A stretch of DNA of 64,000 nucleotides from a virus: IMG/VR virus record IMGVR_UViG_3300032285_003395, positions 33,666 to 97,665 of that record, one strand, 5' to 3'. Positions 1-62,877 of the stretch are shown one piece after another. Made by a program: the position numbers and the translations under genes. Under the pieces are notes generated by a model that saw only the letters and a program-made list of their open reading frames with translations, was not told where the DNA came from and ran no database searches. Position 1 is the first letter of the stretch. Every line of letters begins with the position of its first letter.

Positions 1-3000
1 TTTTATAGTTTAAATTTTGTTGAAGCTAATGATGAAAAAGTATTTAACCAGTCAACTGATAAAATGTTAGATACTATTTTATTAAATCTTAAAAATCAAA
101 GACAAAAATTTATTGAAAATAAACAAACTAATTTAGTTGAAACTATTAATACTTTAATAGATATAATTACAGACCAAGATAGTACAATTAGTAATGAAGA
201 TAGAATTTCTAACTATATAAATATGTCTTTAATTGAAATACAAAAAGTTAATAAAGCTTTTAATGATTTTAAAAACAGCCAAGTTATACAAGACTTAGAA
301 AGTAAAGATTTTAAAAATTTAAGTAGAGCAGAGCAAGAAGCACAAACACAACAAGATAGACAAAATCATTTAAATTATATAGCAGCTGCTATTACTACTG
401 TACAAAACTTAAAATCATTTGTTGATTTAATTGAGTGGAATTTTAAAGGTTTCAATAAATCATTTAGCTCTTTGTCTAAATATAATGAAATTATTAAAAA
501 TTTACCTGATACTTATGAAAATAATGTATTTAAACAACTATTAGAAATAACTAAAGACTCCTCAGAAATAAGTAAAATGAAAGGAGTTTATGTTGAAATT
601 AGTAAAGAATTATTAGATGTTTGTTTTAAAAGTTTAAATACTACCGAACAAAAAAACTTTTTAGAAATAACTCAAACAAATTTAACACCAAATGTTAAAG
701 TTCAAGAAGATATAAATAATGATATTTCTGTGTTATCTACTACAAAAGATATATTAACAGGTAAATTTAGTATAACAAGTGTAGGGTCAACTGTAAAAGA
801 AAATATAATGCCTACTAACTTTCAAAGTGACATTTTTTTAAAAGCAGTTGATAATGCTAATGCAGCTTTAAGACAATATGCTTTAATGGCATCTGCAAAA
901 GAAAGTTTTGAATATTCTTTATTACAAGAAAAATTAAATCAATTAGGAGTTTTTGATGAAACTTGGATTTCTTCTAAAGATGATAAAGGTCAATTAAGTC
1001 ATAAATTATTACAAAAATATAATTTTAAATTATTTAAAAAATCTTTAGTTCAAAAAATTATACAAGAACATTTATCTAAAATTATTGATCTTGATAATGT
1101 ATTAAAAGAAGTAAAAGATAATAACCCTGAAATATTAAAACAAGTAGTTGATAAAACATATAAATCACCTAATGAATTAAAAGATGTAATAAACAAATTA
1201 TTTGATGATGGTGTAATAAGTAAAAAACTATTTTTATTTTTAAATAACTATGTTAATGGTTATGAAACTTTATATACTTTAAAATTAAGTGAAGGTAATA
1301 AAAACTTAACAACTATTAATCAAAATAATTTACAAAAATTTAAAGATAAATATATTACTCAATTAGAGTCTAATTTAAATAATTTAAATTTTAATAAAAA
1401 AGGTTTACCTTACTTTAATCCTAGTTTTAGTTTTAATGATACAACAATTAGTACAGATCAATTATCTGGTATTCTTAGAAATGTTATATATAATAGAAGG
1501 GAGTTTTTAATTAAAAAATATGTTACAGTTCCAAGAATTATTAATGGAGAATTAAATCCTATTTATGATAATCAATTAGCTTATGTAGAAGGATTGTTAA
1601 ATTATTTTAAAAACAATATTTCTTTTTTAGAAGATGAAGAGGGTAATGTTAAATTAAACTATATAAATTATTTGTTATTAGGAGATGACTATATGTTTAA
1701 TTTATCAGATAAATTTTCTGTTCCAAGTATTAATTTTATAGATCAAGATTATGTTAACTTAGAAAAAGATTTACAATCTAGTGATCCTAAGAAAAAACAA
1801 ATTGCTGAATTAAAATTACAAGTAATAGAAAAAATTAGATTAGAAAATATTTCTCACAATGCACCTTCTAATTCATTAGAATATATACCTAAAAATAATA
1901 ACGCAGCTTTTTTAAGCAATTCTAAAGAATATAGACATTTATATAATTTAATATTTAGAGTAGCTTTACCGGGAGTTTTAGCAACTTCAACAACTGTAAA
2001 TCCTTTAGCAGGAGTTATGTTATATTTTCTTTATCAAGGAGGTCTTGATAATTTAATATATAAACCTCTTTATTTTTTTAAACATGATAAAACAGAATCT
2101 AATACTTTTTCTAAAGCATATAAAGCTTTATTAATGAGTTTAAAAGAAGGTTATAATAAAAATCTAAGAGAAAATACTATTATTAAAAATAATGAAAGTT
2201 TACAAAATGAAGTTGTTACAGGTTATAAAAAAATATTTAACAATATTATAGAAAAAATAAAAACTAGTTTAAATAAAGATAGATATAAAAATAATATATT
2301 ATTATTAGGAGAATATAAAATACCTAAATTATTTGGTGCAGATAAAACTAATAAAGTATTTTTATCAACAGATTTTCTTTCTAACCAAAAAACTATTGTA
2401 CAAGCAAGATTTAATTATGAACAAAATATAAGATTTGAATCTTGGATAAGAATGGTTGGTGATTTTAATGAAAGTAGAGAAGGTGTAAATAACTCTAATG
2501 TTATTAATGTAATAAAAGATAGATATTGGTTTAATAAATTTTATAAACCAAGTGCTATGTTAAATGCATATAGATCTTATTTAGGATTTTTATCAGGTAA
2601 ATTATTAAGAGGAAATATTCAAAGTGCTATTAATAACTTAACTGTTGGACAATTTAACGTATTTTTATTTACTAATCCAAAAACTTTACCTAAAACTTTT
2701 ATAGATTTATTAAAACATAATATGAATATGTTAGCTATGGGTACTAACATAGACAATGTAGTAGATAATTTTATTACTACAGTAGGTAATCCTAATAATG
2801 CAGAATCTAGACAAGCATTTTTTGATGCTTTAAAAAATATTTTTTTACTTAGATCTACTAATCAAAATAAATATAATACTAATTTAATAAATCACATTAG
2901 TATGAATTTAAGAAAAAATAGAGGCACTGGTTATATAAATTATGATGAAAGTGAGTCTATTTTAATAAAAGAATTAAATTTAACTAATACTCAAGCATTA

Positions 3001-4776
3001 CAAAATCTTGGTGAAAAACTTATTGAACAAAATATTATATTTCAATTATTAAATAGTAAAATTTTTATTGATGAAGATGGTAAACCTGTTAAAAATTTAA
3101 AAAAATATTTAAAAGTTGAAAATGGTATTATTGTTATTGATAAAACTAAATTACCAAAAAATTTATATTTAAAAACTACAGTTGATTTAGCTTATAAAAA
3201 TTATTATAATATTGATATAAATTCAGGAATAAATATTACTAAAATAACTCCAAAAGAATTAGGGTTATTACCATTAACTAATGTAGAATTACAAAATTAT
3301 TTAAATGTAACAATGTCTAATGACATAAATAATTTAATAGAAAAATCTCAAGGTTCTTATAATATATTTAATAGAAGTTACTGGAGAAATACTTTTGTAG
3401 GATTAACATTTTTACAATTTAAAGACTATGCATTACCTGCATTAACCTCTACTTGGAACTCTAAAAAAATATATAATAATTTTACTAATTATGAATCAGG
3501 AGTTTTAAATTCTATAGGAAAAGCATTTGATAGAGTTGCTGTATCAGGATTAAGAGTAGTAAATAAAAATATTGATTTTAATAAAGATTCAGATCATAAT
3601 TTATTAATTATTAATAATATATCTAAAGCAGAATTTTTAAAAGAATTAGCTGTTATAAAATATTTTTTACCAAAAGCTAATAAAAAAATTAATGAAAATT
3701 TAAAAACTCTTGCTTCTGATAATAAAAAATTTAGAAAAGATACAAAAAGAATAACAAGTATTGATAAATTAGAATCTTTAAGTCTTAGTTGGTATTTAAA
3801 AAATATTAATCTTAAAAGTCAAGATGAAATTAATAAAAAAATAGAATTTGATTTTAATTTAAATAGAAATAATCCAAAATTTAAAGAACAGTTAGATTAT
3901 ATTAAAAATTTAATTAATAAAAAATATAAAAGTAAAAATAATTTAACAAATGCTGATATAGATCAATTAAATAAATATGATGTTGATCAAAATTATTTTG
4001 ATTTAGTCCAAGCTTATTTAAAACTTAAAATAGATTTAAGAGCAGATAAAGATTCTATTAATAAATTAATTAATTTTGTTGGTTTAAGTGTTGGTGTAGT
4101 AGCAATATTAAGTGTATTAAAAGCTTTAGAGTGGCCTAAAAATGAATTAGATGAAGAAGGTAAAAAAATATTAAATTTTAAAGATTGGTTAATAGCTACT
4201 GTAGAATTTAGTACATCTAATTTATTTCTTAGTTATGTTCCTTCAGATGTTAATGATGCTTATGGTATTGATTATAAAAACTTTGCATTACAACTTTATA
4301 AATTAGCACCTGCAATTTCTGAAATAAAAAGAGTTACTGATAAAATAAAAACTAATTATGCAGATGTTAACCCAAATAATATTACTACAGAAAAAGCAAA
4401 AGAATTATTGCGTATTCAACAATTAAATGGGGGTAAACTTCCTTTATTACAACCTAAATTAATTATTAATGAAAAAACAAATAGTTATGAATTAATAAAA
4501 GGGGAAACTTTGGTTGCTAATGCATTAACACAAACTCTTGTTAATAAAGAATTATTAAATAATTTTGAATTTTCAGCACTTGATAAAAATAAATTTAATA
4601 GATTAAAAAATAAAAGTTTTATTTCTTCATTAGCAGAAAAAGCTAATATTAATAGATCTTATAAATTTGGAGATAGACCTACTGATGATACTCAAGAAGA
4701 AAAACAACAAAAAATTGATCTATTTAATGCATATAAAGCAGAACTTGAAAGTGGAAGTAACCCATCAAATAAATAA
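1..4776 (+). CDS. C-terminal part of a giant phage protein (truncated at left edge)
   Basis: The frame is open from base 1 with no stop before the ATG at 64, so the gene starts outside the window and that ATG is probably internal. The visible 1,592 residues are rich in Asn, Lys, Ile and Leu. Two segments are hydrophobic enough to cross a membrane, one near residues 645-680 and one near 1355-1380 (counted from the ATG at 64). I recognise no enzymatic motif. Crassvirales carry several proteins of thousands of residues (virion RNA polymerase and ejected cargo proteins) at the end of the structural block, and this location, convergent with the replication block, matches that. Function is inferred from size and place only. 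Confidence 0.8.
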   Translation, partial: FYSLNFVEANDEKVFNQSTDKMLDTILLNLKNQRQKFIENKQTNLVETINTLIDIITDQDSTISNEDRISNYINMSLIEIQKVNKAFNDFKNSQVIQDLESKDFKNLSRAEQEAQTQQDRQNHLNYIAAAITTVQNLKSFVDLIEWNFKGFNKSFSSLSKYNEIIKNLPDTYENNVFKQLLEITKDSSEISKMKGVYVEISKELLDVCFKSLNTTEQKNFLEITQTNLTPNVKVQEDINNDISVLSTTKDILTGKFSITSVGSTVKENIMPTNFQSDIFLKAVDNANAALRQYALMASAKESFEYSLLQEKLNQLGVFDETWISSKDDKGQLSHKLLQKYNFKLFKKSLVQKIIQEHLSKIIDLDNVLKEVKDNNPEILKQVVDKTYKSPNELKDVINKLFDDGVISKKLFLFLNNYVNGYETLYTLKLSEGNKNLTTINQNNLQKFKDKYITQLESNLNNLNFNKKGLPYFNPSFSFNDTTISTDQLSGILRNVIYNRREFLIKKYVTVPRIINGELNPIYDNQLAYVEGLLNYFKNNISFLEDEEGNVKLNYINYLLLGDDYMFNLSDKFSVPSINFIDQDYVNLEKDLQSSDPKKKQIAELKLQVIEKIRLENISHNAPSNSLEYIPKNNNAAFLSNSKEYRHLYNLIFRVALPGVLATSTTVNPLAGVMLYFLYQGGLDNLIYKPLYFFKHDKTESNTFSKAYKALLMSLKEGYNKNLRENTIIKNNESLQNEVVTGYKKIFNNIIEKIKTSLNKDRYKNNILLLGEYKIPKLFGADKTNKVFLSTDFLSNQKTIVQARFNYEQNIRFESWIRMVGDFNESREGVNNSNVINVIKDRYWFNKFYKPSAMLNAYRSYLGFLSGKLLRGNIQSAINNLTVGQFNVFLFTNPKTLPKTFIDLLKHNMNMLAMGTNIDNVVDNFITTVGNPNNAESRQAFFDALKNIFLLRSTNQNKYNTNLINHISMNLRKNRGTGYINYDESESILIKELNLTNTQALQNLGEKLIEQNIIFQLLNSKIFIDEDGKPVKNLKKYLKVENGIIVIDKTKLPKNLYLKTTVDLAYKNYYNIDINSGINITKITPKELGLLPLTNVELQNYLNVTMSNDINNLIEKSQGSYNIFNRSYWRNTFVGLTFLQFKDYALPALTSTWNSKKIYNNFTNYESGVLNSIGKAFDRVAVSGLRVVNKNIDFNKDSDHNLLIINNISKAEFLKELAVIKYFLPKANKKINENLKTLASDNKKFRKDTKRITSIDKLESLSLSWYLKNINLKSQDEINKKIEFDFNLNRNNPKFKEQLDYIKNLINKKYKSKNNLTNADIDQLNKYDVDQNYFDLVQAYLKLKIDLRADKDSINKLINFVGLSVGVVAILSVLKALEWPKNELDEEGKKILNFKDWLIATVEFSTSNLFLSYVPSDVNDAYGIDYKNFALQLYKLAPAISEIKRVTDKIKTNYADVNPNNITTEKAKELLRIQQLNGGKLPLLQPKLIINEKTNSYELIKGETLVANALTQTLVNKELLNNFEFSALDKNKFNRLKNKSFISSLAEKANINRSYKFGDRPTDDTQEEKQQKIDLFNAYKAELESGSNPSNK

Positions 4777-30854: not shown

Positions 30855-30947
30855 TAGTCAGGACAGGATTCGAACCTGTATGATAACACGACCTATTGAT
30901 TATCGGTTGTTATCTACGTATAGCGTCTACCATTCCGCCACCTGACT
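30855..30947 (-). tRNA. tRNA-like gene 2, abnormal 43-base middle
   Basis: 93 bases on the minus strand with the same acceptor, D arm and T arm as the copy at 30621-30745, differing by one base in the first 25. The 43-base middle is unrelated to that copy. Its only strong helix is GATAACA pairing with TGTTATC (7 bp) around a 19-base loop, offset 8 bases from the D arm and 2 from the T arm, so no canonical anticodon arm can be drawn by eye. The length fits a class II tRNA (Leu or Ser), and the D arm looks like tRNA-Leu. Confidence 0.6.
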
Positions 30948-33821: not shown

Positions 33822-34030
33822 AATTTAAAATTTTTAATGTTAGTAAATGACGGGAGTATTTCAAAATCCCGAAGTTAGGCTGGGCTTGGTTGGGGAGGGT
33901 ACTCCAACTCTTAGTGTCAAAAAAATTTTTTAGGGTAGGGGGTAAAAAAATTTTAAAAAAAAATTTTCAGGTTTTACAAGGCTTCCAAAAATTTTTTAAA
34001 ATAATTTTGTTCTAATTAAAAATTTTTACT
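33822..34030. other. leader of the 134-residue gene
   Basis: About 210 bases upstream of the minus-strand gene. It contains a 5-bp hairpin CGGGA/TCCCG (near 33851-33873), an unusually G-rich patch (33876-33900) and long A and T runs. I found no exact TAnnTTTG box on the minus strand, so the promoter of the gene remains unidentified. Confidence 0.4.
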
Positions 34031-34038
34031 TAGCTTTG
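34006..34038 (+). promoter_or_regulatory. well-formed promoter, TTTG-N21-TAGCTTTG
   Basis: TTTG at 34006-34009 and TAGCTTTG at 34031-34038, 21 bases apart, match both the -33 and -7 elements of Bacteroidota primary-sigma promoters. This is the most complete promoter in the window. It points into 400 bases with no gene, then a terminator. Confidence 0.7.
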
Positions 34039-34044
34039 CAAAAG

Positions 34045-34464
34045 TTTTTTCACTGAGACAAATTCTAATGCCCTGAGATTTGAACTGAAAAGTTGGTTGG
34101 TAAGGATTTCATTAGATAGTTTTAAATAAGGTAGGACCTCCCAGGATAACAAGATCACCTGAAGGGTAAGGAGAGGAAAGTTAAAAGTTTAAATAGAGTA
34201 ATTCTACTTTTAATGTATACAGGATAGTAAGTAACCTAAGTAGCAATATATGGTTATTTATAAACCAACTACTCAATAGAAACAAAGAAACTAATCTTAT
34301 TAAAACTAAAGTTAGCCTGTTCATTCGGGGTAACCTTTCTATGTTTAAGAGTAACTATCTAACTTATTAGTTAGAAGGTTATAACTATATCTGCTAATTT
34401 TTTATTATATTTTTTTTTAAGTACCAGTATATTCTGTAAAAAGAATTGCTGGTATTTTTTTTTT
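34045..34464 (+). ncRNA. probable 0.4 kb structured noncoding RNA
   Basis: Bounded by the promoter at 34006-34038 and the terminator at 34422-34464, with no reading frame. It is clearly richer in G and C than flanking DNA and can form many helices: CCCAGG with CCT-GAA-GGG (34140-34166); TTAAAAGT/ACTTTTAA (34181-34213); AGTAG/CTACT around TGGTT/AACCA (34239-34273); GTTAGCCTG/CGGGGTAAC with one mismatch (34311-34334); CTAACT/AGTTAG (34359-34374). TAACCTT (34331-34337) can also pair with AAGGTTA (34375-34381), excluding the previous helix. The boundaries are predicted, and no known RNA family is recognised. Confidence 0.6.
34422..34464 (+). terminator. intrinsic terminator of the putative ncRNA
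   Basis: TACCAG (34422-34427) pairs with CTGGTA (34449-34454), with an inner ATTCT/AGAAT helix, followed by ten T residues (34455-34464). A new promoter box follows at 34489. Confidence 0.8.
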
Positions 34465-34488: not shown

Positions 34489-34496
34489 TATATTTG
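34489..34496 (+). promoter_or_regulatory. promoter -7 box (TATATTTG)
   Basis: TATATTTG then CAAA, an exact TAnnTTTG match 25 bases before the ATG at 34521. No good -33 TTTG is seen at the usual distance. Confidence 0.55.
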
Positions 34497-54530: not shown

Positions 54531-54538
54531 GATATTTG
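54531..54538 (+). promoter_or_regulatory. promoter-like box (GATATTTG) before phoH
   Basis: GATATTTG followed by CATT, one mismatch to TAnnTTTG, 15 bases before the ATG at 54554, after a run of eight T residues. Confidence 0.45.
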
Positions 54539-54553
54539 CATTTAAATAATTAT

Positions 54554-56323
54554 ATGTCAGACTTTGCAAATGAAAGAGAAAAGAATATTAAATTTTCAAT
54601 TTCTCTAAATGATGAACAAAAACAAGCAAAATCTGTTATATTAGAAAATAGTATATCTTATATAGCAGGTAAACCAGGTTCAGGTAAAACGCTTCTATGT
54701 GCTCAAATAGCATTAGATTTATATTTTAAGAAAAAAGTTAAACATATAATTATAACTAGACCAGCAGTTGAGGCAGGAGAGAAGTTAGGGTTTTTACCAG
54801 GAGGTCTAGATGAAAAGTTAGACCCTTATATGCAAGCAATATATAAAAATTTTTATGCTTTGTATAATAAGGCTAAGGTTGATAAAATGATACAAGATGG
54901 TGTAATTCAAATACACCCTTTTGCATATATGAGAGGTAGTACATTTTGTGATGCAGTTATTATAGTAGATGAATGTTTAACAGGAGATAGTATAATAAAT
55001 GTAGAATTTAATAATAATTCTACATCAAGATTATTTAATAGTTCTACATTATCTTCAATAATAAAAAAATTTAAAAATAATAAAGAAATTAAAGTTTTAT
55101 CTTATAATTCTTTAACTAATAAAATTGAACGAAAAAAAGTAATAGACATCTTTGAAATGGGTGAAAAACAAATTTTTGATATTTATACAGGGTTAAAAAA
55201 GAAGCCGATTAGTGCTTCTAAAAATCACCCTTTTGCAATATTAAAAAATGGAGAAATTGTTTATACAAAAGTTAAAGATTTAAAAAAAGGAGACACTGTA
55301 TTAAGAGCAGTTAACAAAAACTCTAATAATAGTAGAATTTTAAAGAAAGAAAATTATGATGTTTTATTAGGATTATTATTAGGAGATGGTTGTTTATTAA
55401 AAAATAAACAAGATAAGTTAGCTTTTAGATTATCTAAAACTCATGGTTTATCTCAAGAAAATTATAATAGTTATTGTGCTGATATTTTTAATGGAAATCT
55501 ATGTAAAGGATTAATTTCTGGATATACAGGTAAACCTTTATGTGGTATGCAAACTAAAAGTTTGTATTTAGACCAAGATTTTGTTAACTCTATAAAAAAC
55601 TTTAAAAATAAAAAAGAAATTACAAAAAATATTATTAATTATTTTACAGAAAGAACATTGGCTTTTTGGTATATGGATGATGGTTCTTTAGACGCATCTA
55701 ATAGAGTTAGATTACATACAGAATCTTTTTCAAAAGAAGAAAATGAAATATTAATAAATATTTTAAAAGAAAAATTTAATATAACTGCTGAACTTAAATA
55801 TACTAGTAAAAATAAAGGATATTATTATTTAACAATAAATAAAGAAAATAGTAAATTATTTTTTAATTTAGTAAAAAATTATATACAAGAAGATTTGTTA
55901 TATAAATTACCTAAAGAATATAGTCAAGAAAAATTTATTAAAGTTGAACCTTTATTTTTTGATGACTTATCTACAAGTGAAATTACAGAAATTAAAACAG
56001 ATAGATTTGAACCTGTTTATAATATTACTGTTGAAGATAATAATAACTTTTTTGTAGATGGTATTTTAACCCATAATTGCCAAAATACCTCAGAGAGTCA
56101 AGTTAGAATGGTGTTGGAAAGACTTGGTAAAGATAGTAAGATGATGTTATGTGGTGATGTGAATCAAATAGATTTAGCAAAAACTGTAACATCTGGAATA
56201 AAGTTTTTAGAATTTTTAAAAGAATCTAATCTAAAAAACTTTACAAAAATAGTGTTAAAATCTAATCATAGAGACCCAATTGTAGAGGATATAATAAACC
56301 TTTACGAGATATATAAAAAATAA
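54554..56323 (+). CDS. PhoH-like ATPase interrupted by an intein
   Basis: 589 residues from ATG 54554; a TTG at 54536 in frame lies in the promoter box. The host protein is a PhoH-type P-loop ATPase: Walker A GKPGSGKT (39-46), the TRPAVEAGEKLGFLPGG segment and Walker B VIIVDE (135-140). After Glu140 a 368-residue intein starts at Cys141 and ends in HN at 507-508; the extein resumes with CQNTSESQVRM, the conserved segment after the DE pair. Without it the PhoH is 221 residues, a normal length. PhoH ATPases are frequent in phages and may act on RNA or in phosphate stress. Confidence 0.92.
   Translation: MSDFANEREKNIKFSISLNDEQKQAKSVILENSISYIAGKPGSGKTLLCAQIALDLYFKKKVKHIIITRPAVEAGEKLGFLPGGLDEKLDPYMQAIYKNFYALYNKAKVDKMIQDGVIQIHPFAYMRGSTFCDAVIIVDECLTGDSIINVEFNNNSTSRLFNSSTLSSIIKKFKNNKEIKVLSYNSLTNKIERKKVIDIFEMGEKQIFDIYTGLKKKPISASKNHPFAILKNGEIVYTKVKDLKKGDTVLRAVNKNSNNSRILKKENYDVLLGLLLGDGCLLKNKQDKLAFRLSKTHGLSQENYNSYCADIFNGNLCKGLISGYTGKPLCGMQTKSLYLDQDFVNSIKNFKNKKEITKNIINYFTERTLAFWYMDDGSLDASNRVRLHTESFSKEENEILINILKEKFNITAELKYTSKNKGYYYLTINKENSKLFFNLVKNYIQEDLLYKLPKEYSQEKFIKVEPLFFDDLSTSEITEIKTDRFEPVYNITVEDNNNFFVDGILTHNCQNTSESQVRMVLERLGKDSKMMLCGDVNQIDLAKTVTSGIKFLEFLKESNLKNFTKIVLKSNHRDPIVEDIINLYEIYKK
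54974..56077 (+). mobile_element. intein with LAGLIDADG homing endonuclease
   Basis: 368 residues, CLTGDSIINV to DGILTHN. The splicing blocks are present: Cys1, block B ASKNHPF (81-87) with the conserved His, block F around NITVEDNNNFFVDGILTHN, the penultimate His and final Asn, and Cys as the first residue after the intein. Two LAGLIDADG motifs, LLGLLLGDG (131-139) and LAFWYMDDG (229-237), mark a homing endonuclease. The element sits inside the Walker B/sensor segment, so ATPase activity depends on splicing. Confidence 0.92.
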
Positions 56324-61557: not shown

Positions 61558-61818
61558 ATGAAATTTTTTAAAGATTTATTTTCAGATAACAATTCATTAA
61601 ATGAAAAATCATTTATTGGATTTTTATCTTTTTTAGTATTATGTATATTTGCTATGGTAGATATTATCTCAGGATTTATGGGTCATACTCTTACAATACA
61701 TGAATTTATTTTTAATGGTTTTGAAATTATTGTATTAGGTGCATTTGGTATAGCTGCAACTGAAAAAATTACAAATATTATAAAAAATAATATAGATAAA
61801 GATAATGAGTCTAAGTAA
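61558..61818 (+). CDS. small holin-like membrane protein
   Basis: 86 residues from the ATG at 61558; the in-frame ATG at 61507 overlaps the previous gene and is less likely. Two membrane helices (about 18-36 and 46-66) between a basic N-terminus (MKFFKDLFSD) and a basic tail (EKITNIIKNN). This type is common before endolysins in Bacteroidota phages. It overlaps the endolysin gene by 14 bases. Confidence 0.6.
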   Translation: MKFFKDLFSDNNSLNEKSFIGFLSFLVLCIFAMVDIISGFMGHTLTIHEFIFNGFEIIVLGAFGIAATEKITNIIKNNIDKDNESK

Positions 61819-62416
61819 ATTACAAGAAAAATTAGGTCTTGAACCTAATGGTTTATTTGGACCACATACTATGCAAGTAGCTATGGAGTATTATAAAATG
61901 ACTCCTGAAAGAGCTGCACATTTTTTTGGACAAACTTGTCATGAAACAGGTAATTTTGCAAGATTTGAAGAAAATTTAAATTACTCTACAGAAGGATTGT
62001 TAAAAACATTTAAAAAATATTTTACAATAGAGACAGCACCTATGTATGCTAGAAATCCTCAAAGAATAGCTAATAAAGTTTATGCTAATCGTATGGGTAA
62101 TGGTAATGAAGCTAGTGGTGATGGTTATAAATTTAAAGGAAGAGGTGCTCTTCAATTAACAGGAAAAGCAAACTATAAAGCATTTTCTGATTATTTAAAA
62201 AATCCAGAGATTGTGGAAAATCCAGATTTAGTTGCAGAAGAATTTTCTTTTGAATCAGCTATATTTTTCTTTGATAAAAATAAACTTTGGAATATTTGTG
62301 ATAAAGGAATAAATAAAGAATCTATACTAGCTCTTACTAAAAAAATAAATGGTGGAGTCAATGGTTTAGATGATAGAGAAGAAAAAACATTTAAATACTA
62401 TACATACGTTAAATAA
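61805..62416 (+). CDS. endolysin, GH19 (chitinase-like lysozyme) family
   Basis: 203 residues. After a short peptidoglycan-binding-like start (LSKLQEKLGLEPNGLFGPHT), the GH19 domain shows HFFGQTCHETGNFARFEEN, with catalytic Glu47, and YKFKGRGALQLTGKANY (about 108-124); the second catalytic Glu is probably the one near residue 102. It hydrolyses glycan bonds of peptidoglycan at lysis. No signal sequence, so it needs one of the holin-like proteins encoded around it. Its stop overlaps the next gene by one base. Confidence 0.9.
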   Translation: MSLSKLQEKLGLEPNGLFGPHTMQVAMEYYKMTPERAAHFFGQTCHETGNFARFEENLNYSTEGLLKTFKKYFTIETAPMYARNPQRIANKVYANRMGNGNEASGDGYKFKGRGALQLTGKANYKAFSDYLKNPEIVENPDLVAEEFSFESAIFFFDKNKLWNICDKGINKESILALTKKINGGVNGLDDREEKTFKYYTYVK

Positions 62417-62877
62417 TGAAATATTTATTTTTTAGTCTTATTGTTATATTAGGATTTTATATTTGGTTTACTAATAATACTATTAATCAAAAAGAAACTA
62501 TTATAAAACATTTAGAGGATAGTTTATCTTCTAAGATAGATACTTTAATTATTAATAGAGATATAGTTCAAAATCATTATATTACATCAAAACAATATGT
62601 TTATAAATTAGATAAAAAATATATTCCAGGTAAAGATTCTATATGTGATAGTTTAGTAGTTGCATTAAAAAATTCTTTAAAAACTTGTGATACTGTAATT
62701 AATATTTCAGATACTCTTATTAAAACTTTATTAGTAAGAGATACTGTTAGAATTAATCATATACATTATTTAGATAAAAAAAGTAAATTTTCTTTAATAG
62801 TAGGTCCTACTTTATCTTTAACTCCACAAGGTATACAACCTGGAATAGGTATTTCTTTTGGAATAAAATTAAAATAA
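62416..62877 (+). CDS. possible single-molecule spanin
   Basis: 153 residues. An N-terminal membrane helix (MKYLFFSLIVILGFYIWF), a long periplasmic coiled-coil/beta stalk, and a C-terminal strand-rich end FSLIVGPTLSLTPQGIQ then GIGISFGIKLK, which looks like outer-membrane-inserting beta strands. One protein that spans from inner to outer membrane would fuse the membranes in the last step of lysis. Its place directly after the endolysin supports the call; the family is not recognised. Confidence 0.55.
   Translation: MKYLFFSLIVILGFYIWFTNNTINQKETIIKHLEDSLSSKIDTLIINRDIVQNHYITSKQYVYKLDKKYIPGKDSICDSLVVALKNSLKTCDTVINISDTLIKTLLVRDTVRINHIHYLDKKSKFSLIVGPTLSLTPQGIQPGIGISFGIKLK

Follow-up and report, generated by a model that had tools for sequence, protein, structure and literature searches.

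Among the large noncoding RNAs described in phages, GOLLD rises during lysis, and ROOL, which is ~660 nt long, is often located near tRNA islands (PMC12286853). In phage ICP1 the most abundant transcript is an ~800-nt noncoding RNA encoded beside the lysis cluster (PMC7567579). At the level of tertiary motifs, the GAAA tetraloop/11-nt receptor class includes examples from group I introns, group II introns and RNase P (PMC3494683).

The RNA described here (~420 nt) is shorter than either ROOL or GOLLD (659 and over 800 nt respectively). It resembles GOLLD in being phage-encoded, noncoding and elaborately folded with covarying structure, and the accumulation of GOLLD at lysis finds a parallel in those copies that lie beside lysis genes (group B below); however, it has neither a sequence nor a covariance match to GOLLD, is half its length, and is not part of a tRNA island. 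Like ROOL, it is a large RNA of phages or prophages with a complex structure and no assigned function, but it is shorter, gives no match to the ROOL covariance model, and is not beside a tRNA island. The group B copies resemble the ICP1 noncoding RNA in being situated between lysis genes and the next gene block, although ICP1 belongs to another phage group and its RNA is twice as long; the likeness is one of place. With the P4-P6 domain of group I introns and the specificity domain of RNase P it has in common a GAAA tetraloop and an 11-nt receptor (PMC3494683), but it has no catalytic core or Rfam match and forms an independent transcription unit.

Organization of the locus

The window is the whole 64-kb stretch of DNA that was analyzed, corresponding to bases 33666-97665 of a 97.7-kb virus record, and coordinates below refer to the window and its + strand unless otherwise indicated. 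The terminase, portal and capsid proteins of this phage match PHROGs families, and because the sole isolate matching over at least 80% of the terminase length is Cellulophaga phage phi14:2 (Crassvirales, Steigviridae; 34% terminase identity), the source phage is crAss-like. An ORF-less interval separates leftwards-transcribed replication genes from rightwards-transcribed structural genes. The part of it predicted to be transcribed, from the putative start to the end of the terminator (34043-34464), is ~422 nt, and is assigned as a noncoding RNA from conservation and covariation. The region from 34006 to 34464 contains no annotatable ORF, as the earlier note had proposed (the longest start-to-stop frames encode 42-47 aa and are on the minus strand), and no reading frame common to the RNA homologues was found, leading us to reject a conserved small ORF. 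The interval is also richer in G+C than its surroundings, as had been claimed (30.5%, vs 28.0% in the upstream kb, 23.8% in the downstream kb and 25.0% in the window), but the excess is modest, placing it at the 87th percentile of 350-nt windows.

The intergenic segment to the left of the RNA promoter (33822-34005) is likewise conserved (73% in L012 and L033) and carries an ACGGGA...TCCCG inverted repeat and a G-rich run; it is possibly a leader of the leftwards gene or a replication signal. ARAGORN finds no tRNA in the window, and the only tRNA-like match is 3 kb from the RNA on the other strand (30855-30947, -). This segment scores 41.2 bits with the Rfam tRNA model and has acceptor and T arms that look intact, yet it is rejected by ARAGORN and its anticodon and variable region are odd; it is perhaps degenerate or intron-bearing. 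Elsewhere in the window, a PhoH-like protein (54536-56323, +) has an internal LAGLIDADG homing-endonuclease domain, which is probably an intein. In L030, L031, L033, L039, L040 and L041 the terminase match is ~1 kb longer in DNA than in the window (in L041 it is a single ORF of 1119 aa vs 768), and this extra length probably also represents an intein.

Relatives and sequence conservation

Relatives were gathered using the terminase and capsid proteins, the whole records behind these loci were searched, and the homologue set was enlarged with a pattern scan of IMG/VR (AGGACCTCCNAGGATN{0,1}AACAA). The final set is of 21 IMG/VR contigs, yielding 12 distinct RNAs after trimming to the conserved region, with one sequence containing an ambiguous base omitted. 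Group A consists of the window, L012/L008 and L033, in which the RNA is in a common position; group B contains the nine more distant distinct sequences. The RNA is single-copy in all four of the longest records (98-140 kb).

The window RNA is 90% and 87% identical to those of L012 and L033 over ~350 nt. For the same pairs the left-hand gene is 61-62% identical, the two right-hand genes 69-72%, and the terminase 84-85%; the major capsid gene is 88% identical (L012 only). Given these values and the lack of a shared frame, the RNA is among the most conserved DNA at the locus and is non-coding. The group B RNAs are ~71-78% identical to that of the window.

Three further pattern matches, in the GC-rich phage L084 and the bacterial contigs L118 and L119, have no more in common with the RNA than the 18-21 nt of the search pattern and were dismissed as chance. 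Neither a profile HMM nor a covariance model detects a homologue in phage phi14:2, and there is no match in 33 shorter records of relatives, most of which reach neither of the two positions in which the RNA occurs, nor in G004 and G008, in which the post-lysis position is off the contig as judged by coordinates. The phi14:2 genome (L121) has a 1.7-kb segment (2904-4602) without remaining annotated genes, several ORFs having been withdrawn from the record, and this may contain another noncoding element. In L113 (3405-3774) the 5' and 3' halves of the RNA correspond to different group B types, as would result from either a recombination event inside the RNA or a chimeric contig.

The suggestion that the RNA corresponds to no known family agrees with searches of Rfam 15, in which the window RNA and two relatives match no family at either gathering or permissive thresholds. 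Weak permissive matches in L112 and L108 are in the downstream terminator region, outside of the RNA. Covariance models of GOLLD, ROOL and OLE give nothing at E values up to 5 in the same three sequences, and no homologue was found among INPHARED phages or PLSDB plasmids; Flavobacterium phage matches in the INPHARED search were set aside, as they cover only the promoter and the start of the next gene. ARAGORN and Rfam give no tRNA or tmRNA match to the RNA, and there is no Rfam match to group I or group II introns; the RNA is intergenic with its own promoter and terminator.

Transcription signals

A promoter with both elements, as noted earlier, is present immediately upstream of the RNA (34006-34038), with TTTG at 34006-34009, a 21-bp spacer and the -7 box TAGCTTTG at 34031-34038, giving a predicted start at ~34043. 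The box conforms to the Bacteroidota definition TAnnTTTG (PMC9723704) and is found 21-23 nt upstream of a conserved core, ACTGAGAC, in all 12 distinct homologues and in both genomic contexts. The -33 element is clear in the window and in most group B members, and weak in L082 and L085. The sequence TAnnTTTGC occurs seven times on the coding strand of the 4,484 intergenic bases of the window and not at all on the opposite strand there, with 20 occurrences in all of the genic DNA; the promoter motif is thus more than chance.

The RNA ends at an intrinsic terminator (34422-34464), with a TACCAG...CTGGTA stem-loop at 34422-34454 followed by a T-tract of exactly ten residues (34455-34464), in agreement with the earlier description. 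Its stem is rebuilt by compensatory changes in L012 (TACCAGTTTTTTCT/AGAAAAGGCTGGTA) and L033 (TACCTGCAGA/TCTGTGGGTA). A separate -7 box, TATATTTG, is located beyond the RNA at 34489-34496 and serves the genes from 34521 onwards, which therefore need no read-through. As the RNA has the same -7 box in both contexts while its location changes, it constitutes a transcription unit of its own, not something specific to the switch point. In group B there is a strong terminator ~170 nt beyond the RNA, making the 3' end of the RNA tentative in these phages. The region downstream of the group B RNAs (L112 6083-6253 and equivalents) has a second TAnnTTTGC promoter, a strong GC-rich hairpin with a conserved loop (GATTCCCTTTG), and a T-tract; these may belong to a small RNA distinct from this one, or else mark where a longer transcript really ends.

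Structure of the RNA

A secondary structure of 68 pairs was built by hand and scored on alignment A5, which was used for the pair counts because the sub-domain alignment A6 misplaces the group A receptor. A5 mis-registers H1 between the groups by one base, which lowers the counts and does not raise them. Standard pairs occupy 86.3% of cells, compared with 35-51% for structures slid along the alignment, a lead that is partly built in because the structure was drawn on the same sequences. Twenty-four of the 68 pairs change on both sides (18.0 ± 2.4 in shuffles, with 4 of 500 reaching this number), and the covariation score is 0.287, reached in none of 500 shuffles (0.160 ± 0.011) and at most 0.107 in slid structures; because the 12 distinct sequences fall into only a few lineages, the number of independent events behind this covariation is small. 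Further pair types number 40 and do not exceed the shuffled value (44.5), and the evidence therefore rests on paired changes and not on diversity of pair types.

RNAalifold, applied to a sub-alignment and not given the drawn structure, recovers the receptor stem together with H4, H8, H9 and the inner part of H5. In an exhaustive helix search, the top five include the stem above the GNRA loop as well as H2, H5 and H8. Thirteen helices have at least two pairs with paired changes, compared to a mean of 4.9 and a maximum of 11 in column-shuffled alignments. The comparison indicates that selection acts on the RNA structure, with most helices supported by compensatory changes. The earlier note counted at least five good helices, and relatives uphold most of ~13; the thermodynamic signal alone is weak, with unremarkable single-sequence folding z-scores of -2.05 (whole 430 nt), -0.65 (central domain) and -0.55 that are insufficient as proof.

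The predicted fold begins with a 5' hairpin (34065-34115) in which H1 (34065-34070/34110-34115) encloses H2 (34083-34086/34091-34094) and its GAAA loop (34087-34090). H2 is AACT-GAAA-AGTT in the window and AGGG-GAAA-CCCT in group B, with three pairs changing on both sides. H3 is a long-range closing helix (34116-34388) pairing ATAGTT (34116-34121) with AACTAT (34383-34388); all six pairs form in all 12 sequences, with variation through G-U only and no two-sided change. It encloses a multibranch domain (34130-34273) closed by H8 (34130-34134/34269-34273; variants GGTAG/CTACT, GATAG/CTATC and GTAAG/CTTAC) and containing H4 (34142-34145/34158-34161), H5 (34181-34188/34206-34213) and H9 (34222-34223/34265-34266; GG/CC vs CG/CG). 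The 3' helices (34316-34380) are H11 (34316-34319/34326-34329) and H12, with an outer AACCTT/AAGGTT helix (34332-34337/34375-34380) and an inner CTAACT-TATT-AGTTAG hairpin (34359-34374). H11 and H12 are good within group A and L108; in the rest of group B they align poorly or have changed, such that the 3' third is less certain there. A CTGAG near 34053 can pair with a TTCGG near 34325 in nearly all members, in competition with H11, and this may reflect either a wrong helix or a conformational switch.

The multibranch domain also contains the receptor stem (34228-34260), composed of TAAGTAA/TTATTTA, the receptor strands CCTAAG (34235-34240) and TATGG (34249-34253), and a GCAA cap (34243-34246). 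We take CCTAAG...TATGG to be the canonical 11-nt receptor for GAAA tetraloops. It occurs once in the 64-kb window (0.36 expected on both strands), and that occurrence falls in a conserved stem of the RNA. The receptor is kept in both groups and in all homologues, with one compensated variant (TCTAAG/TATGA), and the cap above it is a GNRA loop in every member (GCAA, GAAA, GAGA or GTGA). The H2 loop is GAAA without exception, and thus CCUAAG and UAUGG in opposite strands of an internal loop, and a GAAA tetraloop elsewhere, are both conserved. This combination suggests a compact tertiary fold through predicted tetraloop-receptor docking, within or between molecules.

Taken with the conservation and the promoter, covariation among relatives (a check that had been proposed) and the tertiary-motif sequence bear out the earlier proposal of a structured noncoding RNA, and comparative evidence strongly supports a real structured RNA belonging to a new, previously undescribed family.

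Two genomic locations

In the nine group B sequences the RNA is not at the divergence point, but starts ~46 bp after lysis genes, these being M15 peptidase and GH19 endolysins and a small protein of unassigned family. It is followed by a metallophosphatase/exonuclease-like gene and tail genes, and in G006, for which the contig was measured, the terminase is ~29 kb upstream of it. In the window, no copy of the RNA follows the homologous lysis genes (61558-62877), and there is none at the divergence point of the group B phage L022. The RNA is oriented like the terminase in every record examined. Since nine of the 12 copies are post-lysis and the group B divergence point has no copy, position is not part of the function. 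The earlier argument that a location at the transcription switch suggests a regulator or decoy is consequently not supported, and, with the position varying between the groups, the interpretation as a whole receives only partial support.

Discussion

The RNA could be a cis-acting leader or processive-antitermination element, similar to HK022 put or to EAR, controlling read-through into downstream genes, as both positions place it ahead of a long block of genes in the same orientation, with a terminator-like structure after the RNA. We consider this unlikely because the neighboring genes change and there is a separate downstream promoter: in the window this is between the terminator and the first gene, and in group B further TAnnTTTG boxes follow the RNA, while the downstream genes differ between the positions and the RNA is not kept with one operon in the manner of put or EAR. 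The put and EAR elements are, moreover, much smaller than this RNA with its ~350 conserved nt and tetraloop receptor. A virion or packaging component kept near late genes, similar to the phi29 pRNA, would fit both the occurrence of group B copies among late genes and the constant orientation relative to terminase, but the RNA is not adjacent to terminase, is about twice the size of the 174-nt pRNA, and has no other sign of a packaging role; we regard this as very improbable.

A trans-acting regulator, sponge or decoy, acting at the early/late switch by pairing with mRNA or by binding a defence factor or a protein of the host, could use the conserved ACCTCC and GGAGAGG stretches to bind partners, and the group A position is a divergence point. 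As this position is not conserved between the groups, such a role is possible only in trans, and most of the invariant motifs lie in helices or in elements of the tertiary motif; the analysis gave no positive sign of such a role, and we give it little weight. One version, an anti-Shine-Dalgarno mimic acting through ACCTCC, was rejected: within the RNA these bases, which are invariant, have a possible pairing partner in GGAGAGG, and the idea is further weakened because Bacteroidota mRNAs are without Shine-Dalgarno sequences (PMC6847099). The GAAA/11-nt receptor is typical of group I and group II introns and RNase P, all three of which are listed as containing it (PMC3494683), and this raises the question of whether the RNA derives from, or is a remnant of, a self-splicing intron or another ribozyme. 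However, there is no Rfam intron or RNase P match, permissive thresholds included, and the RNA is equipped with a promoter and terminator of its own and does not split any gene, leaving this a shade less probable even than a packaging role. The least credible explanation is that the interval is no functional RNA but conserved DNA, such as a replication origin, or spacer: it lies at a GC-skew switch in the window, but its helices change in compensation, it has its own promoter, and the group B divergence point has no copy.

We therefore favor, as probable though well short of secure, an autonomous, trans-acting family of structured noncoding RNAs in uncultured Crassvirales-type phages of Bacteroidota that works like GOLLD and ROOL, a mechanism whose best reading is by analogy with these RNAs. 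The transcript is predicted from comparative evidence. It would be made by the host RNA polymerase, separately, from a host sigma-A-type promoter; docking of the GAAA tetraloop into the 11-nt receptor would then give a compact, stable fold, and the RNA would accumulate in lytic infection and work in trans, late, as a stable structural RNA or scaffold. It has features by which the ornate large RNAs are loosely grouped, being phage-encoded, free of ORFs and extensively folded with covarying secondary structure. A more specific and rather doubtful proposal is that it is a sequence-unrelated phage ornate RNA family that uses tetraloop-receptor folding to form RNA-only oligomers or cages in late infection; if true, this would be the first ornate RNA of the RNA-only oligomer type reported for the Crassvirales, so far as the searched literature shows.

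Large structured phage RNAs with no known job, such as GOLLD, ROOL and the ICP1 noncoding RNA, present an open problem. The RNA described here is compact (~350 conserved nt), with 12 distinct sequences, a secondary structure and a predicted tertiary contact, and its occurrence in two genomic contexts sets its function apart from that of neighboring genes. A late or lysis neighborhood is common to the group B copies and the ICP1 RNA. To these large RNAs it adds a family of separate sequence, from phages (the crAss-like group) that are of major ecological importance.
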